A stretch of DNA of 64,000 nt, from NCBI RefSeq assembly GCF_004403515.1, contig NZ_SOHH01000038.1, positions 36,783 to 100,782 on the forward strand. Direction: 5' to 3'. Made by a program: the position numbers and the translations under genes. The notes beneath the pieces were generated by a model. The model had not been told where the DNA came from and did not search any database. It worked only from the letters and a program-made list of their open reading frames with translations. This DNA comes from Cryobacterium fucosi (GTDB lineage: Bacteria > Actinomycetota > Actinomycetes > Actinomycetales > Microbacteriaceae). Shown here one piece after another: positions 53,347-60,260 of the stretch (its first letter is position 1; the number at the start of each line of letters is the position of its first letter).

Positions 53347-54678
53347 ATGAGCGACAACGCAAACGACTGGAAGTTCGAAACCAGGCAGGTTCACTCCGGC
53401 GCCCGGCCTGACCCCACCACGAACGCCCGGAACACCCCGATCTACCAGACGACCTCCTACGTCTTCAACAATGCCCAGCACGCGCAGAACCTGTTCGCGC
53501 TGGCCGAATTCGGCAACATCTACACCCGCATCATGAACCCGACCCAGGCCGTCGTCGAGGAGCGCGTCGCCGCCCTCGAAGGCGGGACCGCGGCGCTGCT
53601 GCTCGCGTCCGGCCAGGCCGCGTCGACGTTCGCGGTCCTGAACATCGCCGAGGCCGGCGACCACATCGTGTCGTCCAGCTCGATTTACGGCGGCACCTAC
53701 AACCTGTTCAAGTACACGCTCGCCAAGCTCGGCATCGAGACGACGTTCGTCGAGAACCAGGACGACGCGGCCGAGTGGGCCCGCGCCGTGCGCCCGAACA
53801 CCAAGCTCTTCTTCGCGGAGACGATCGGCAACCCGAAGATCAACGTGCTCGACATCACCCTCGTCGCCGGCGTCGCCCATGAGGCCGGCGTCCCGCTGAT
53901 CGTCGACAACACGATCGCGACCCCCTACCTGATCCGCCCGTTCGAGCACGGCGCCGACATCGTCGTCCACTCGGCCACCAAGTTCCTCGGCGGCCACGGC
54001 GCGGTCATCGGCGGCGTCATCGTCGACGGCGGCAGCTTCGAATGGTCGAAGAACGTCGAGAAGTTCCCGGGCCTGACCGAGCCGGACCCGTCCTACCACG
54101 GGGTCAGCTACACCGGCGCCGTCGGCGACCCCATCGCCTACATCATCAAGGCCCGCGTGCAGTTGTTGCGCGACCTGGGTGCCGCGATCGCCCCGGCGAG
54201 CGCCTGGCAGCTCATCCAGGGCATCGAAACCCTGAGCCTGCGGATCGAACGTCACGTGCAGAACGCCCAGGAGATCGCCGAGTGGCTCGAAAACCACCCG
54301 GACATCGCGTCGGTCAACTACGCCGGGCTGCCGACGAGCCCCTGGTATGCCGCCGCGAACAAGTACGCCCCCCAGGGCGTCGGCGCGGTGCTCTCCTTCG
54401 AGCTCAAGGGCGGGGTGGATGCCGGCCGCGCCCTGGTCGACAACCTCGAGCTGTTCAGCCACCTGGCCAACATCGGCGACGTGCGCTCGCTCGTGATCCA
54501 CCCGGCCTCGACCACCCACGCGCAGCTCACTCCTGAGCAGCAGCTGACGGCCGGCGTCACGCCCGGCCTGGTGCGCCTGTCCGTCGGCATCGAGAACATC
54601 GCCGACCTCACGGCCGACCTCGAGCTCGGCCTGGCCGCTGCACGCGCCGTCGTGGAGGCCTCCCGCGCCAACGCCTAG
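53347..54678 (+). CDS. metY: O-acetylhomoserine sulfhydrylase (bifunctional OAH/OAS type)
   Basis: Makes homocysteine from O-acetylhomoserine and sulfide. The 443-residue PLP enzyme has [42 protein letters not shown]-like segments, the PLP Lys in [16 protein letters not shown] and the C-terminal ASTTHAQLT that marks MetY rather than MetB. No SAM riboswitch could be recognised in the 140-bp upstream gap. metX follows after 195 bp. Confidence 0.93.
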
Positions 54679-54873: not shown

Positions 54874-56070
54874 ATGGAATGGCAATTCTCGGCAGACACG
54901 GTCCCGTCCAGCTTCGTCACTGAAGCCCAGGCGCGCTCGCTCCTCGGCAAGCCACCGGCGACCGGCGCGTGGCGCGACGGCGACCCCGTCGGGTCGCGCC
55001 GCTTCCTCCACGTCGGCCCGCTGCGGTTCGAGGCCGGCGGCAGCCTGGGTGCCGTGCGCATCGCGTACGAGACCTGGGGCGAGCTCTCCCCGTCCCGCGA
55101 CAACGCCGTGCTCGTGCTGCACGCGCTCACCGGCGACAGCCACCTCGTCGGCGCCGCCGGCGACGGCCACGTCACGGCGGGCTGGTGGGGCGGCATCGTC
55201 GGTCCGGGGCTCGCCATCGACACCGACCGCTGGTTCGTGGTGGCGCCGAACATGCTGGGCGGCTGCCAGGGCAGCACCGGCCCCGCGTCGCTCGCGCCCG
55301 ACGGCACCGAGTGGGGCACCCGCTTCCCGTACCTCACGATCCGCGACCAGGTGGCCGCACAGATGGCCTTCGGCGACCGTCTCGGCATCGACCGCTGGGC
55401 CGCGGTCGTCGGCGGTTCGATGGGCGGGATGCACGCCCTCGAGTGGGCGATCGAGGCGCCTGAGCGGGTGGCGCGCGTCGCCGTCCTCGCAGCACCGCCC
55501 GTGACGACGGCCGACCAGATCGCCTTGAACTCGGTGCAGATCGAGGCGATCCGTTCCGATCCGCTGTTCCGGTCGGGGGACTATTACGACGCCGACGACG
55601 GTCCCACCCGCGGCCTTGCCCTGGCCCGCCGGATGGCCCTGCTCAATTACCGCAGCCCCGCCGAACTCAACCTCAGGTTCGAGCGCGCCTGGCAGAGCGA
55701 GATCAGCCCGCTGGGCGCCGGCGGCCGGTTCGCCGTCGAGTCCTACCTCGACTTCCACGGCAACAAGTTCACCCGCCGGTTCGACGCCAACAGCTACATC
55801 ACTCTCGTGCAGGCGATGGACTCGCACGATGTCGGCCGCGGCCGCGGCGGTGTCGCCGCCGCCCTCAGCCGGGTGACGGCCCGCGCCGTCGTCGTCGGCA
55901 TCGACAGTGACCGGCTGTTCCCGGTCGAGGGCCAGCGACGGATCGCCCGGCACCTCCGACACAACATCGACGGCGCCGACCCGGTCGTGCTCGAATCGGG
56001 GTACGGCCACGACGGTTTCCTGATTGAGACCGAGACCATCGGCGCCCAGCTGGACCGTCTGCTCGACTGA
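54874..56070 (+). CDS. metX: Homoserine O-acetyltransferase
   Basis: Acetylates homoserine for methionine synthesis. The 398-residue alpha/beta hydrolase-fold protein has the oxyanion motif MLGGCQGSTGPAS, nucleophile Ser in VVGGSMGGMHALEWA, Asp in IDSDRLFP and His in YGHDGFLIE, the MetX triad. ATG 54874 follows GGGGGCGT, a weak site. It works with metY in the direct sulfhydrylation route, supplied by hom. Confidence 0.94.
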   Translation: MEWQFSADTVPSSFVTEAQARSLLGKPPATGAWRDGDPVGSRRFLHVGPLRFEAGGSLGAVRIAYETWGELSPSRDNAVLVLHALTGDSHLVGAAGDGHVTAGWWGGIVGPGLAIDTDRWFVVAPNMLGGCQGSTGPASLAPDGTEWGTRFPYLTIRDQVAAQMAFGDRLGIDRWAAVVGGSMGGMHALEWAIEAPERVARVAVLAAPPVTTADQIALNSVQIEAIRSDPLFRSGDYYDADDGPTRGLALARRMALLNYRSPAELNLRFERAWQSEISPLGAGGRFAVESYLDFHGNKFTRRFDANSYITLVQAMDSHDVGRGRGGVAAALSRVTARAVVVGIDSDRLFPVEGQRRIARHLRHNIDGADPVVLESGYGHDGFLIETETIGAQLDRLLD

Positions 56071-56217: not shown

Positions 56218-56955
56218 ATGAAACCCGCCTACGTCGTCATGCTCGTGCTCGTGCTCGTGCTCGGAACGGTGTTCTCGCTGATCGGCCTCGGGATGCTGAC
56301 CGGCGGTGTGGCCGCCACAGCGGCGGGCTCCCAGCAGGCGGACAACAGATTCTTCAGCGCGCCGGCCGCCTCATTCTCCGCCGACTCCTACGCGCTCACC
56401 TCGCCCGGGCTGGACGTCGCCGGCACGTCCGGAATCCCCACCGGGGTCGCACGCATCCGGCTGGAGGCAACGAGCACCGGCGGCGATGTGTTCATCGGAA
56501 TCGCCCCGCAGGCCGAGGTCGACCGCTACCTCACCGGGGTGCACCACACCGAGCTCGTGGACGTGAGCGTCTCCCCGTTCCGGGCGGAGTACCGGGACGT
56601 CGCCGGTGCGGAACGCCCCACCCTTCCCGGCGACCAGGACTGGTGGACGGTGTCGGCCTCCGGACCGGGCACGCAGCAGGTGGTCTGGGACGTCCAGCCC
56701 GGCGCCTGGGCCGTCGTCGTGATGAACTCGGATGCGAGTCCGAACGTGGCCGTGCAACTGCGCGCCGGCGCCCGGCTCGGTCTGCTCGGCCCGCTCGCGA
56801 TCGGTCTGGTGATCGCCGGCATCCTGCTGCTGCTCGGAATGGCGCTTGTCGTTCTCGGCGCCATCGGGCTGGGGCGGGGCACCCAACCGCCACCCGGCAC
56901 ACCGCTGGCCGCCCAACCGCCACCCGGCGCGGAGCGGGTCGCATCGACCAGATGA
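56218..56955 (+). CDS. Membrane-anchored protein of unknown function
   Basis: A 245-residue protein. One membrane helix lies near the N-terminus (residues ~3–27), a ~150-residue extracytoplasmic beta-rich domain follows, and a second helix occurs at ~190–215 before a Pro-rich tail with a repeated AQPPPG motif. I do not recognise it. ATG 56218 (MKPAYVV) follows GAGAGG by nine bases; ATG 56197 is a longer alternative. It precedes the kinase gene in the same direction by 78 bp and may be part of that unit. Confidence 0.65.
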   Translation: MKPAYVVMLVLVLVLGTVFSLIGLGMLTGGVAATAAGSQQADNRFFSAPAASFSADSYALTSPGLDVAGTSGIPTGVARIRLEATSTGGDVFIGIAPQAEVDRYLTGVHHTELVDVSVSPFRAEYRDVAGAERPTLPGDQDWWTVSASGPGTQQVVWDVQPGAWAVVVMNSDASPNVAVQLRAGARLGLLGPLAIGLVIAGILLLLGMALVVLGAIGLGRGTQPPPGTPLAAQPPPGAERVASTR

Positions 56956-57033: not shown

Positions 57034-58224
57034 ATGAGGGGTAATCCAGACGACATGCAACGAATTAGCAAAGAGCGCGACCGCCTCCTGCGGAGAGCCG
57101 CCCGATTGTCCGGCCTCGCCGGGTCGGTGGCGGTTCTGCTCGTGATGCTGGTTCCCGGCGGTCTCAGTCTGGCCCTGCTCGGTCGTTGCCTGCCGGTGCT
57201 CCTGCTCATGGTCGTCGGCCAGTACCTGCTTGGCCGTTCCGGCCGGATTCGCTGGGTGGCCCTGATCGTGCTCTCCGGCAACGGGATCATCCTGCTGATC
57301 GGCTTTTCCGGCCAGCGGACCTCCGGCCTGAACCTGGTCGAGGAGACCGTCATCGGCGCAGTGGCCGCGACCGCGACGAGCTCCGTCGCACTCGTCCTGG
57401 TCGTCAGTACGCGCCGATTGATCCTGCTGTTCGCCTTGTTCTCGGCCACGCTGGCCAGCGTCCTCGCGACCATGATCACCTCCGCCGGGGCGATCGTCCC
57501 GCTGGCGATCACGATCTGCGGCTGGTTCGCCGTTGCGCTCGCAGGCTGGTGGATCGCCCAAAGCGTTCCCCGGGTGATGCAGCGCATCGCCGCGATCGGC
57601 CGCGCCCACCTGGCCGAACGACACGCCAGCGAACTGGAGGCGCAGCGCCGCCAGGACGCCAGGCTCCTGCACGACACCGTGCTCGCCACCCTCACGCTGC
57701 TCGCCCACTCCGGTGTCGGCGTCAGCCCGGCCGCGCTCCGCCAGCAGGCGGGCGATGACGCGCGGCTGTTGCGGCAGTTACGCCTGGGTGGACTGCCGAC
57801 GCCGCGTCGCTCGGGCGTGTACACCCTCGAACGGGCCACTGAGTCGACCCTGGGCAGCACCCTGGAATCGGTGAAGCAGCGCTTCGGCCGGCTGGGGCTC
57901 GAGGTGGACTGGCACGGCAGTGGGCAGGTGCTGCTGCCCAGCGACGTCCTCGACTCGTTCCTGCTCGCGCTGGGCGAATGCCTGGAGAACGTGCGCCGGC
58001 ATGCCGGGGTCGACCGGGCCGACGTCACGATCTCGGATGACGACACCACCGTGCGCGCCATGGTCACCGATGCCGGCGTCGGCTTCGATCTGCTCGGGGT
58101 GAGCGCCGAACGGCTCGGTTTTGCCGAATCCGTCGTGGCCCGGCTGCGAGACGTCGGCGGCAACGCCAGGCTGTTCTCCTCCCCCGGCTCCGGCACGACC
58201 GTTGTCCTGGAGGTGCCGAAGTGA
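57034..58224 (+). CDS. Sensor histidine kinase (HisKA_3/NarL-type)
   Basis: A 396-residue membrane kinase. About five or six membrane helices (residues ~30–180) form a sensory module without a large outer loop. A coiled coil follows (HLAERHASELEAQRRQDA), then the H-box ARLLHDTVLATLTLLA with the phosphoacceptor His, and the ATPase N-box (LGECLENVRRHAG) and G-boxes (VTDAGVGFDL; GSGTTVVLEV). The order suits partners with LuxR-type regulators. Its stop overlaps the next gene by four bases. ATG 57055 is an alternative start. Confidence 0.88.
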   Translation: MRGNPDDMQRISKERDRLLRRAARLSGLAGSVAVLLVMLVPGGLSLALLGRCLPVLLLMVVGQYLLGRSGRIRWVALIVLSGNGIILLIGFSGQRTSGLNLVEETVIGAVAATATSSVALVLVVSTRRLILLFALFSATLASVLATMITSAGAIVPLAITICGWFAVALAGWWIAQSVPRVMQRIAAIGRAHLAERHASELEAQRRQDARLLHDTVLATLTLLAHSGVGVSPAALRQQAGDDARLLRQLRLGGLPTPRRSGVYTLERATESTLGSTLESVKQRFGRLGLEVDWHGSGQVLLPSDVLDSFLLALGECLENVRRHAGVDRADVTISDDDTTVRAMVTDAGVGFDLLGVSAERLGFAESVVARLRDVGGNARLFSSPGSGTTVVLEVPK

Positions 58225-59513
58225 TCGGCCCCGACCTCGTCGACGTCTCGCTGGACGACGTCCGGGTCCCCCGCGCGAGCCGGAAGAACCTGCGCCTCAA
58301 AGAGGTCCAGGAGCGCCAGGACCGTCGGCGCACCTTCCGCCGCCCGGAGCGCACGGTCAAGACCACCCGCGCGAACCAGAGCGGCCTCGGCGGCCGTCAC
58401 CTCGGCATCGGCCTGTCCTTCAGCGGCGGGTTCATCGCCCTGTTCCTGTTCTGGCGTTTCATGATCCAATGGTTCGACTACTCGAATCCCCTGCCGAGCC
58501 TGGCGGCGTGGACGCTCCTGATGGCGACGACGACGCTCGCCCTGGTCACGGTGCAGCGGCTGTCGGCGCGCATGCCCGACTGGCTGTTCGCCGCGGCCCT
58601 GGCCAACGGAAGTGTCGTGGTCGTGCTCGACCTCGCCGGTTCACGCGGACCGGACGGGTCGGAGATCTACCCGACCGCGGCCGCGGCCGTCGGTTCGCTG
58701 TTGATCGCCCTCGTAACGGTGCGCCGCGGCCGCGATGTCGTCACGTCGGCCGCCGTGCTGGCCGCGGTTCTGTTCCTCGGCGCCATCACGGAGTCCCGCC
58801 CGGACCCGCTCACCCTCGCACCGGAACTGCTGGCCATCGGCCTGGCCATCATGCCGCCGCTGTTCGGAGTCGCGATCGTACGGTCGTTCCGCCGGATGGC
58901 CCAGCGAGAGCTTGATCTGGTGCTCGTGCAGAGCACGGTCTCCCAACCGCAATTCGCGGTGGGCATGCTCGCCTCCGAGGAACTCGCGCGGATCGACCTC
59001 GACGCGGAGACCCTGCTCGACGACGTCGCCCAGGGCCGGACCGCCCTTCCGCTCAGCGCCGACAAGTCGACGACGGCCTCCACCCTCGCCACCCAATTGC
59101 GCCTGCACCTGATCCGGGGCCGACGCGAAACGTGGCTGTACCATGCGATCACCGAGTCGGAGTTCCTCGGCCCTTCCGTGAACCTGCACGACCCCGCGGG
59201 CCTGGCCGGGTTGCTCGACCCGCCCCAACGCGACGCGCTGCTCCGCACGATTTGGCTCCTGATCAGCGACACAACTCGTGCCGAGGCCGCCGTTTCGCTC
59301 TCGCTCGGTCCGATCAGGTCCACGCACGGCGTCCGCGCCCGCCAGAAGTTGCGATTTCCAATCGAATTGACTACAACGGGTGTGCCACGGCGGCGTGTGG
59401 ACCCCGAGACGTGGCAAGCTATCCGAGTGGTCGGTCCTCACATCGATTCAACCAGGGACGGGAGTCTCCGGGTGGAAATCGAGTGCAGTATCCACAATCC
59501 CGCGGATGCTTGA
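58221..59513 (+). CDS. Kinase-shaped membrane protein lacking catalytic motifs
   Basis: A 430-residue protein coupled to the kinase gene (GTGA overlap). A basic cytoplasmic N-terminus (residues 1–60, many Arg/Lys) is followed by about six membrane helices (~62–225) and a ~200-residue cytoplasmic domain. That domain resembles a DHp-like helical pair (LLDDVAQGRTALP, then LRLHLIRGRRETWLYHAI) but has no H-box His and no N- or G-box. This points to a degenerate partner that senses or modulates the kinase. The family is not recognised and the function is inferred from context. Confidence 0.65.
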   Translation: MIGPDLVDVSLDDVRVPRASRKNLRLKEVQERQDRRRTFRRPERTVKTTRANQSGLGGRHLGIGLSFSGGFIALFLFWRFMIQWFDYSNPLPSLAAWTLLMATTTLALVTVQRLSARMPDWLFAAALANGSVVVVLDLAGSRGPDGSEIYPTAAAAVGSLLIALVTVRRGRDVVTSAAVLAAVLFLGAITESRPDPLTLAPELLAIGLAIMPPLFGVAIVRSFRRMAQRELDLVLVQSTVSQPQFAVGMLASEELARIDLDAETLLDDVAQGRTALPLSADKSTTASTLATQLRLHLIRGRRETWLYHAITESEFLGPSVNLHDPAGLAGLLDPPQRDALLRTIWLLISDTTRAEAAVSLSLGPIRSTHGVRARQKLRFPIELTTTGVPRRRVDPETWQAIRVVGPHIDSTRDGSLRVEIECSIHNPADA

Positions 59514-59519
59514 GGTCTG

Positions 59520-59543
59520 CGACGGAGAGCCGTCGGGCTTTTT
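59520..59543 (+). terminator. Intra-operon hairpin with T-run
   Basis: CGACGG (59520–59525) pairs with CCGTCG (59530–59535) around an AGAG loop and is followed by GGC and five T residues. This is a textbook intrinsic terminator, yet it sits 31 bases before the response-regulator start, so it probably lowers, rather than ends, read-through from the kinase genes. Confidence 0.65.
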
Positions 59544-59573
59544 GGTCGGGTGCAACGGCAGTAGGAGGCAGCA

Positions 59574-60260
59574 ATGACGAACATGACAATGACGAATATC
59601 GAAGTGCCGGGCAGGGAATGCCCCATCCGGCTGGCCTTGGTCGACGATCATCGAATGCTCCTCGGCGCCCTCACCGAGTGGATCAGGGGGGCGGCGGACG
59701 ACATCAACATGGTCGCCGCCGTCACGACCTGGCCGGAGCTGCTCACCCACCCCGAGTTCCCCGTCGACGTCGTGCTCCTCGACCTCGACCTCAAGGACAA
59801 CATCCCGGTCTCCCTGAAGATCTCCACCCTCAAGACCGCCGGCGTGAAGACCGTGCTGATGAGCACGTATTCCGAGCCCGGCCTCGTGCGCGAGGCGCTG
59901 GCTGCAGGGGCGCTCGGCTACCTCGTCAAGAGCGAAGAAGCGAACATGATCGTTGAGGCGATCCGCGCAGCCTACGAGGGTGAGTCCTACATTTCGGCCG
60001 AGCTGGACGAAGCGCTGAGCGCCGGCACCAGCGGCGGCTCCCCCCGGCTGAGCGCCCAGGAGCGCCGGGTGATGGCACTGTACGGCGCCGGCGAGCCGGT
60101 CAAGGCCGTGGCACACCAGCTCGGTATCTCCGAGGAGACCGCGAAGTCCTACCTCAAGCGGATTCGCGAGAAGTACCGTCTCGCGGGCTTCGACGTGGGC
60201 ACGAAGGTCGCCCTGCGGAAGCGCGCCATCCACGACGGCATCCTCCTGCAGACCGACTAG
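59574..60260 (+). CDS. LuxR-type (NarL family) response regulator
   Basis: A 228-residue regulator. The receiver domain has the acidic pair DDH (LALVDDHRML), the phospho-Asp in VVLLDLDLKD, and Lys in YLVKSEE; the C-terminal LuxR-type HTH is GEPVKAVAHQLGISEETAKS. GTAGGAGG precedes the ATG. It is the natural partner of the kinase at 57034, separated from it by the pseudokinase gene and a hairpin. Confidence 0.9.
   Translation: MTNMTMTNIEVPGRECPIRLALVDDHRMLLGALTEWIRGAADDINMVAAVTTWPELLTHPEFPVDVVLLDLDLKDNIPVSLKISTLKTAGVKTVLMSTYSEPGLVREALAAGALGYLVKSEEANMIVEAIRAAYEGESYISAELDEALSAGTSGGSPRLSAQERRVMALYGAGEPVKAVAHQLGISEETAKSYLKRIREKYRLAGFDVGTKVALRKRAIHDGILLQTD

Follow-up and report, generated by a model that had tools for sequence, protein, structure and literature searches.

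To our knowledge, few pseudokinases are known in bacterial two-component signalling; much is known of such proteins from animals and plants. In Caulobacter, a tyrosine replaces the phospho-accepting histidine of DivL, and the other residues of the H, N, G1, F and G2 boxes are kept (PMC4211667). LiaF is a negative regulator in the LiaFSR three-component system (PMC3543457). In Corynebacterium glutamicum, the kinases ChrS and HrrS heterodimerise natively, truncated ChrS gives no significant heterodimer signal, and an evolved, catalytically dead ChrS variant (a pseudokinase) alters the output (PMC9491836). Here, we analyse a window of 64,000 nucleotides from the genome of Cryobacterium fucosi (Microbacteriaceae; contig NZ_SOHH01000038.1, positions 36,783 to 100,782), in which three genes follow one another on the + strand: a histidine kinase (57034-58224), a partner protein devoid of catalytic motifs (58221-59513) and a NarL-type response regulator (59574-60260). 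The same-direction arrangement reported in a preliminary description of the window was thus recovered. We propose, with a probability of roughly 0.7, that this unit is a two-component system with a paired sensor, in which an active MacS-like kinase is accompanied by a dead, degenerate relative of its own, a pseudokinase subunit that sets its output.

The kinase and partner genes overlap by four nucleotides (GTGA, 58221..58224), the partner gene (58221..59513, 430 residues) starting with GTG within the stop of the kinase. The kinase start had been placed at 57034; we set it at 57055 because the conservation and many of the relatives' open reading frames (ORFs) begin there, and the gene therefore probably extends from an ATG at 57055 to 58224. 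Partner searches yielded 110 related loci, collected as two sets of 30 and 80 that may have species in common. The kinase lies directly upstream of the partner on the same strand in all 110, an in-frame ATGA or GTGA overlap is present in 108 (in the exceptions, L044 and L069, the ORFs are fused or broken), and the regulator follows the partner in 109, the remaining locus stopping at a contig end. Loci chosen through the partner cannot alone prove that the kinase never stands without it, a point on which the co-occurrence with the regulator bears. The partner was detected in 206 of 299 Microbacteriaceae genomes, representing 58 of 85 genera, and the regulator (E up to 1e-80) in 207 of the same genomes; a comparison of the lists by eye showed a single discrepancy, G113, a genome 77% complete. 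A partner missing beside the kinase in most relatives would have spoken against the preliminary description, and the 110 loci showed the opposite. Outside the family, the partner profile matched none of 92 genomes in a search of the order, a draw in which three of seven family genomes matched, and no match to the window's class of partner was found in a plasmid collection. Family f16 of the same order (L123-L131) has a regulator approximately 50% identical to that of the window, and neither blastp nor the partner profile gave a kinase or partner match alongside it in the four regions fetched. In L146, L147 and L148, from genomes that also possess the standard unit, a second and diverged copy of the window-type partner (~ 30% identity) follows a diverged kinase of its own.

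The H, N and G boxes that had been described earlier for the membrane histidine kinase are present, and its relatives keep them. The H box reads LLHDTV (His codon at 57670-57672), the N box reads ECLENVRRH, and the G boxes are present; in the relatives, the H box was found in 107 of 108 kinases, and the N, G1 and G2 patterns were found in all 108. The sole kinase without a readable H box is that of L055, from which only a partial ORF was obtained. Together with a Pfam HATPase_c match of 29.6 bits (cut-off 26.4), these boxes identify the protein as a histidine kinase, with approximately five or six membrane helices according to hydropathy. No Pfam HisKA_3 match was found in it, and the four HisKA_3 places of the genome are all on other contigs. 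The nearest named family in NCBIfam is MacS (NF047322), with 63.6 bits. Across 39 loci, the mean pairwise identity of the kinases is 31.9% in the membrane part, 85.7% in the dimerization and histidine phosphotransfer (DHp) domain and 78.7% in the catalytic and ATP-binding (CA) domain.

The partner lacks these motifs. Its first 75 cytoplasmic residues contain no H[DEN] motif in any of 108 sequences and thus no recognisable phospho-acceptor histidine, and neither D.G.G nor G.G[TS] occurs (0/108 each), so that the N/G boxes of a histidine kinase are likewise missing; a loose N-box pattern was matched in three of the 108. Hydropathy revealed six hydrophobic stretches, with matching helices in the structure model (residues ~ 58-223; 58392..58889). 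This membrane part is poorly conserved: in the same 39 loci, the mean pairwise identity is 36.9% over residues 56-222, rises to 76.8% over residues 223-347 and falls to 48.8% over the remainder. Asp259, Arg294, Arg301, Trp305 and Leu306 are each invariant in 108 of 108 partners. The core is therefore held nearly as tightly as the CA domain of the active kinase, which fits an interaction surface. It might be supposed that the partner is the functionless remnant of a kinase paralogue in decay, as the loss of the catalytic motifs would allow; a core of 76.8% identity against 78.7% in the kinase CA domain, the five invariant residues and the presence in 58 of 85 genera make this explanation highly improbable.

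The preliminary description had weighed the finding that the partner is a member of a known family; none was identified here: the protein matches no Pfam and no NCBIfam family at E up to 1, and a search of PDB sequences with the protein returned nothing at E up to 10. A single PDB match of the partner profile, at E 3.3, was judged meaningless. When 40 partners were run against Pfam, 20 families, mostly membrane-protein families by description, were matched weakly in a few members each; the most frequent was DUF2070 (4/40, best E 0.0014), and the best E value was 1.9e-4 for Bax1-I (2/40), the window's own partner having no match.

A key question is what such a protein resembles. In the predicted structure, the cytoplasmic part consists of a DHp-like helical hairpin (residues 243-302; 58947..59126), modelled with modest confidence and carrying Asp259 and Glu263, both invariant in 108 of 108 partners, and of a CA (GHKL)-like domain (residues 303-430; 59127..59510) with neither N/G boxes nor an ATP lid. 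Of the 50 best VIA rows, 36 align to this part of the model, and all 36 are kinases or their relatives. The fold neighbours include Spo0B (Foldseek) as well as ChpT and a phosphotransferase-receiver complex (VIA). The model thus predicts a degenerate DHp-CA fold, in agreement with the comparison to kinase domains that had been suggested; of the earlier characterisation of the 430-residue protein, the six helices and the lack of phospho-His and ATPase motifs are borne out, and the kinase-like shape holds as a prediction. A role as a phosphotransferase of the Spo0B/ChpT type was rejected, as the phospho-transferring His that it requires on the DHp hairpin is missing.

A second class of partner (type-2) extends the observations beyond the family. 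Type-2 partners were found in 20 of 246 genomes of the taxonomic class (13 of 148 in a profile search). Among the 20 are the genome of C. fucosi itself (contig 71), genomes of other families and those of the Microbacteriaceae genus g85, for which the genomes searched gave no match to the window's class (type-1). We examined 20 regions, 19 covering 20 of the 25 places found plus that of G007. In the latter genome, a weak third match confined to the membrane part had pointed to a gene of 343 codons next to a further MacS-like kinase. In 18 of the 20 regions, the type-2 partner gene immediately follows that of a kinase, with an overlap or end to end, and in the other two (L192 and L193) kinase and partner are fused; a regulator match is present in 18 of 20, with none in L188 and L190. 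On contig 71 of C. fucosi (L176:2006-5083), this second unit has the order regulator, kinase, type-2 partner, again with a four-nucleotide overlap between kinase and partner. A Pseudarthrobacter plasmid has this gene order too, annotated as LuxR-type regulator, 'ATP-binding protein' and 'hypothetical protein', with four nucleotides shared by the second and third genes; the last label belongs to the sole annotated type-2 member encountered.

In at least 15 of 149 genomes of the genus of G657, kinase and type-2 partner form one ORF, in which a kinase H box and G box are followed by the partner module. These ORFs measure 711-879 residues, counted from the longest possible start, and their continuity was checked in the best 15 loci (L213-L227); L225 and L227, in which the search had flagged one in-frame TGA, were nevertheless found to be single open ORFs. 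The fusions within this genus may stem from few fusion events. In general, the natural fusion of two proteins is strong evidence that they work together. These cases bear on another possibility, a partner that acts as a co-sensor of its own or as a transporter-like membrane protein, shares no more than the operon and works on the regulator or on some other target without contact to the kinase. Six helices, the lack of catalytic motifs and a freely diverging membrane part would suit such a protein; however, the overlap in 108 of 110 loci, the co-presence with the regulator, the kinase-like predicted fold and the fusion of a related class to its kinase point the other way, and we regard this explanation as quite unlikely.

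Two kinases beside type-2 partners deviate from the common pattern. Those of L191:5024-6178 and L194:8242-9423 carry Arg in place of the phospho-His (VVRDEV), N- and G-box-like motifs being retained, and each lies near a second kinase with an intact H box and a regulator. A weaker second type-2 match (L194:3317-4234; G558:C1:3643316-3644233), detected by the profile and missed by blastp, stands directly behind the intact kinase in L194.

The second class also provides the only sequence link between the window's partner and kinases: direct profile comparison of the kinase with the partner gave no signal, nor did comparison of type-2 partners with window-type kinases alone. Through the resulting two-step profile chain, the partner position aligned with the kinase phospho-His is Asp259, an Asp in 108 of 108 partners. 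This residue opens a D-x-x-x-E pattern (Asp259/Glu263) that is likewise present in 108 of 108, and it invites the suggestion of a transmitter split into two halves, in which the kinase would phosphorylate the regulator and the partner would serve as phosphatase, binding the regulator through the DHp-like hairpin and dephosphorylating it through Asp259/Glu263. A DxxxQ phosphatase motif that pairs an acid with an amide is described for HisKA_3 kinases (excerpt of PMC3510030). The window's kinase and its relatives lack the Gln of this motif, having Ala at the D+4 position in 107 of 107 kinases whose H box is readable, and ChpT and the phosphotransferase-receiver complex are among the VIA matches of the partner. 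However, the motif in that excerpt (PMC3510030) needs an amide partner rather than Glu, and the rule may not apply to a kinase that is not HisKA_3 by Pfam. In addition, Asp259 aligns with the His itself and not with the following Asp, a register that may be off by one, and the acidic pair is not conserved in type-2 partners as read by eye. Taken together, a split phosphatase appears rather unlikely.

We therefore return to the paired sensor. In a heteromeric sensor, kinase and partner would contact each other directly; the overlap, the co-occurrence and the type-2 fusions are indirect signs of this. Translational coupling would ensure that both are made in step, and the two proteins may pair within the membrane and via their DHp-like helices. 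The membrane part of the pseudokinase, or a ligand at its cytoplasmic part, could then act on the active kinase through a conformational change and thereby set the flow of phosphate to the NarL-type regulator; input perceived by the membrane part of either protein would affect how the regulator is loaded. DivL, LiaF and the native ChrS-HrrS heterodimers serve as precedents. Regarding the direction of control, we lean towards restraint plus co-sensing. A bolder version, which we put forward only tentatively, is that actinobacteria possess an unrecognised type of sensor, a receptor of which kinase and pseudokinase would each be an indispensable half: the active one would phosphorylate the regulator, and the dead one, through a membrane input of its own, would erase or block this phosphate; at least two classes of such receptors would exist, both in this genome, the halves forming one polypeptide in some second-class genomes. 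A conserved, dedicated pseudokinase without a database family, found in 58 of the 85 sampled genera of its family and with a second class in other families, opens to direct testing what a catalytically dead kinase fold does next to a live kinase, with the natural fusions as ready constructs of fixed stoichiometry. The recurrence of such pairs in related bacteria, some of them as fusions, suggests a control subunit built into bacterial sensing that has had no name until now.

The third gene of the unit (59574..60260) encodes a NarL/LuxR-type regulator with Response_reg (38.5 bits) and GerE (36.9 bits) domains, both above the Pfam cut-offs, and is strongly conserved (mean pairwise identity of 86.1% in the receiver and 90.1% in the helix-turn-helix region, 39 loci). 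In many relatives outside Cryobacterium (several loci among L076-L109), another NarL-type regulator, 36-47% identical to that of the window, was observed a few kb upstream of the partner. The hairpin previously noted before the regulator exists at 59520-59535; it is a local feature outside the unit, since a hairpin with a T run (perfect stem of at least 5) occurs in only 5 of 109 loci, and a scan gave 2 terminator-like sites versus 1.6 in shuffled sequences. The small membrane protein gene at 56218-56955, with N- and C-terminal hydrophobic stretches, a proline-rich tail and no Pfam match, had also been considered a possible member. It does not belong to the unit: relatives (blastp, E up to 1e-5) were found in 20 of 80 loci, all from Cryobacterium, three loci (L045, L077 and L085) having less than 1.3 kb upstream of the kinase and being unable to reveal one. 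The constant upstream neighbours are two gene families of ~ 400 residues (77/80 loci) and ~ 443 residues (73/80), corresponding by size and position to the genes 54874-56070 and 53347-54678, which we take to be metX/metY. Just before the kinase start, L074, L078, L094, L095, L100, L105 and L108 share, by eye, a CCCC...GGGG-like or ACCCCCA-like element and a GTGTGA-like stretch, possibly a promoter or a regulator site.

How the unit compares with known systems can now be stated. Spo0B and ChpT have a degenerate CA domain and act through a phospho-His, whereas the window's partner, their fold neighbour, has none. MacS-family kinases (NF047322) are the closest named relatives of the active kinase, which nevertheless scores far below the 300-bit cut-off of that family. 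LiaFSR differs from the window's unit in gene order and in the architecture of LiaF, and the partner found no family in the Pfam and NCBIfam libraries, which we take to contain LiaF models. What the two systems have in common is a kinase and a regulator joined by an accessory third protein (excerpt of PMC3543457). Similar to the partner, DivL is kinase-shaped, lacks the phospho-His and controls the pathway of another kinase; in contrast to DivL as described in the excerpt, the partner lacks the H, N and G boxes and the lid and is the coupled neighbour of its kinase (PMC4211667). ChrS and HrrS resemble the proposed pair as heterodimerising actinobacterial kinases of which a dead variant affects the output, whereas the ChrS pseudokinase is a laboratory mutant of a normal kinase and the partner is a conserved, dedicated gene (excerpt of PMC9491836). 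In the open-licence literature searched, no description of this kinase-pseudokinase-regulator unit was found. Bacterial pseudokinases and three-component systems were known before, and what is new here is this conserved, dedicated and kinase-coupled variant.
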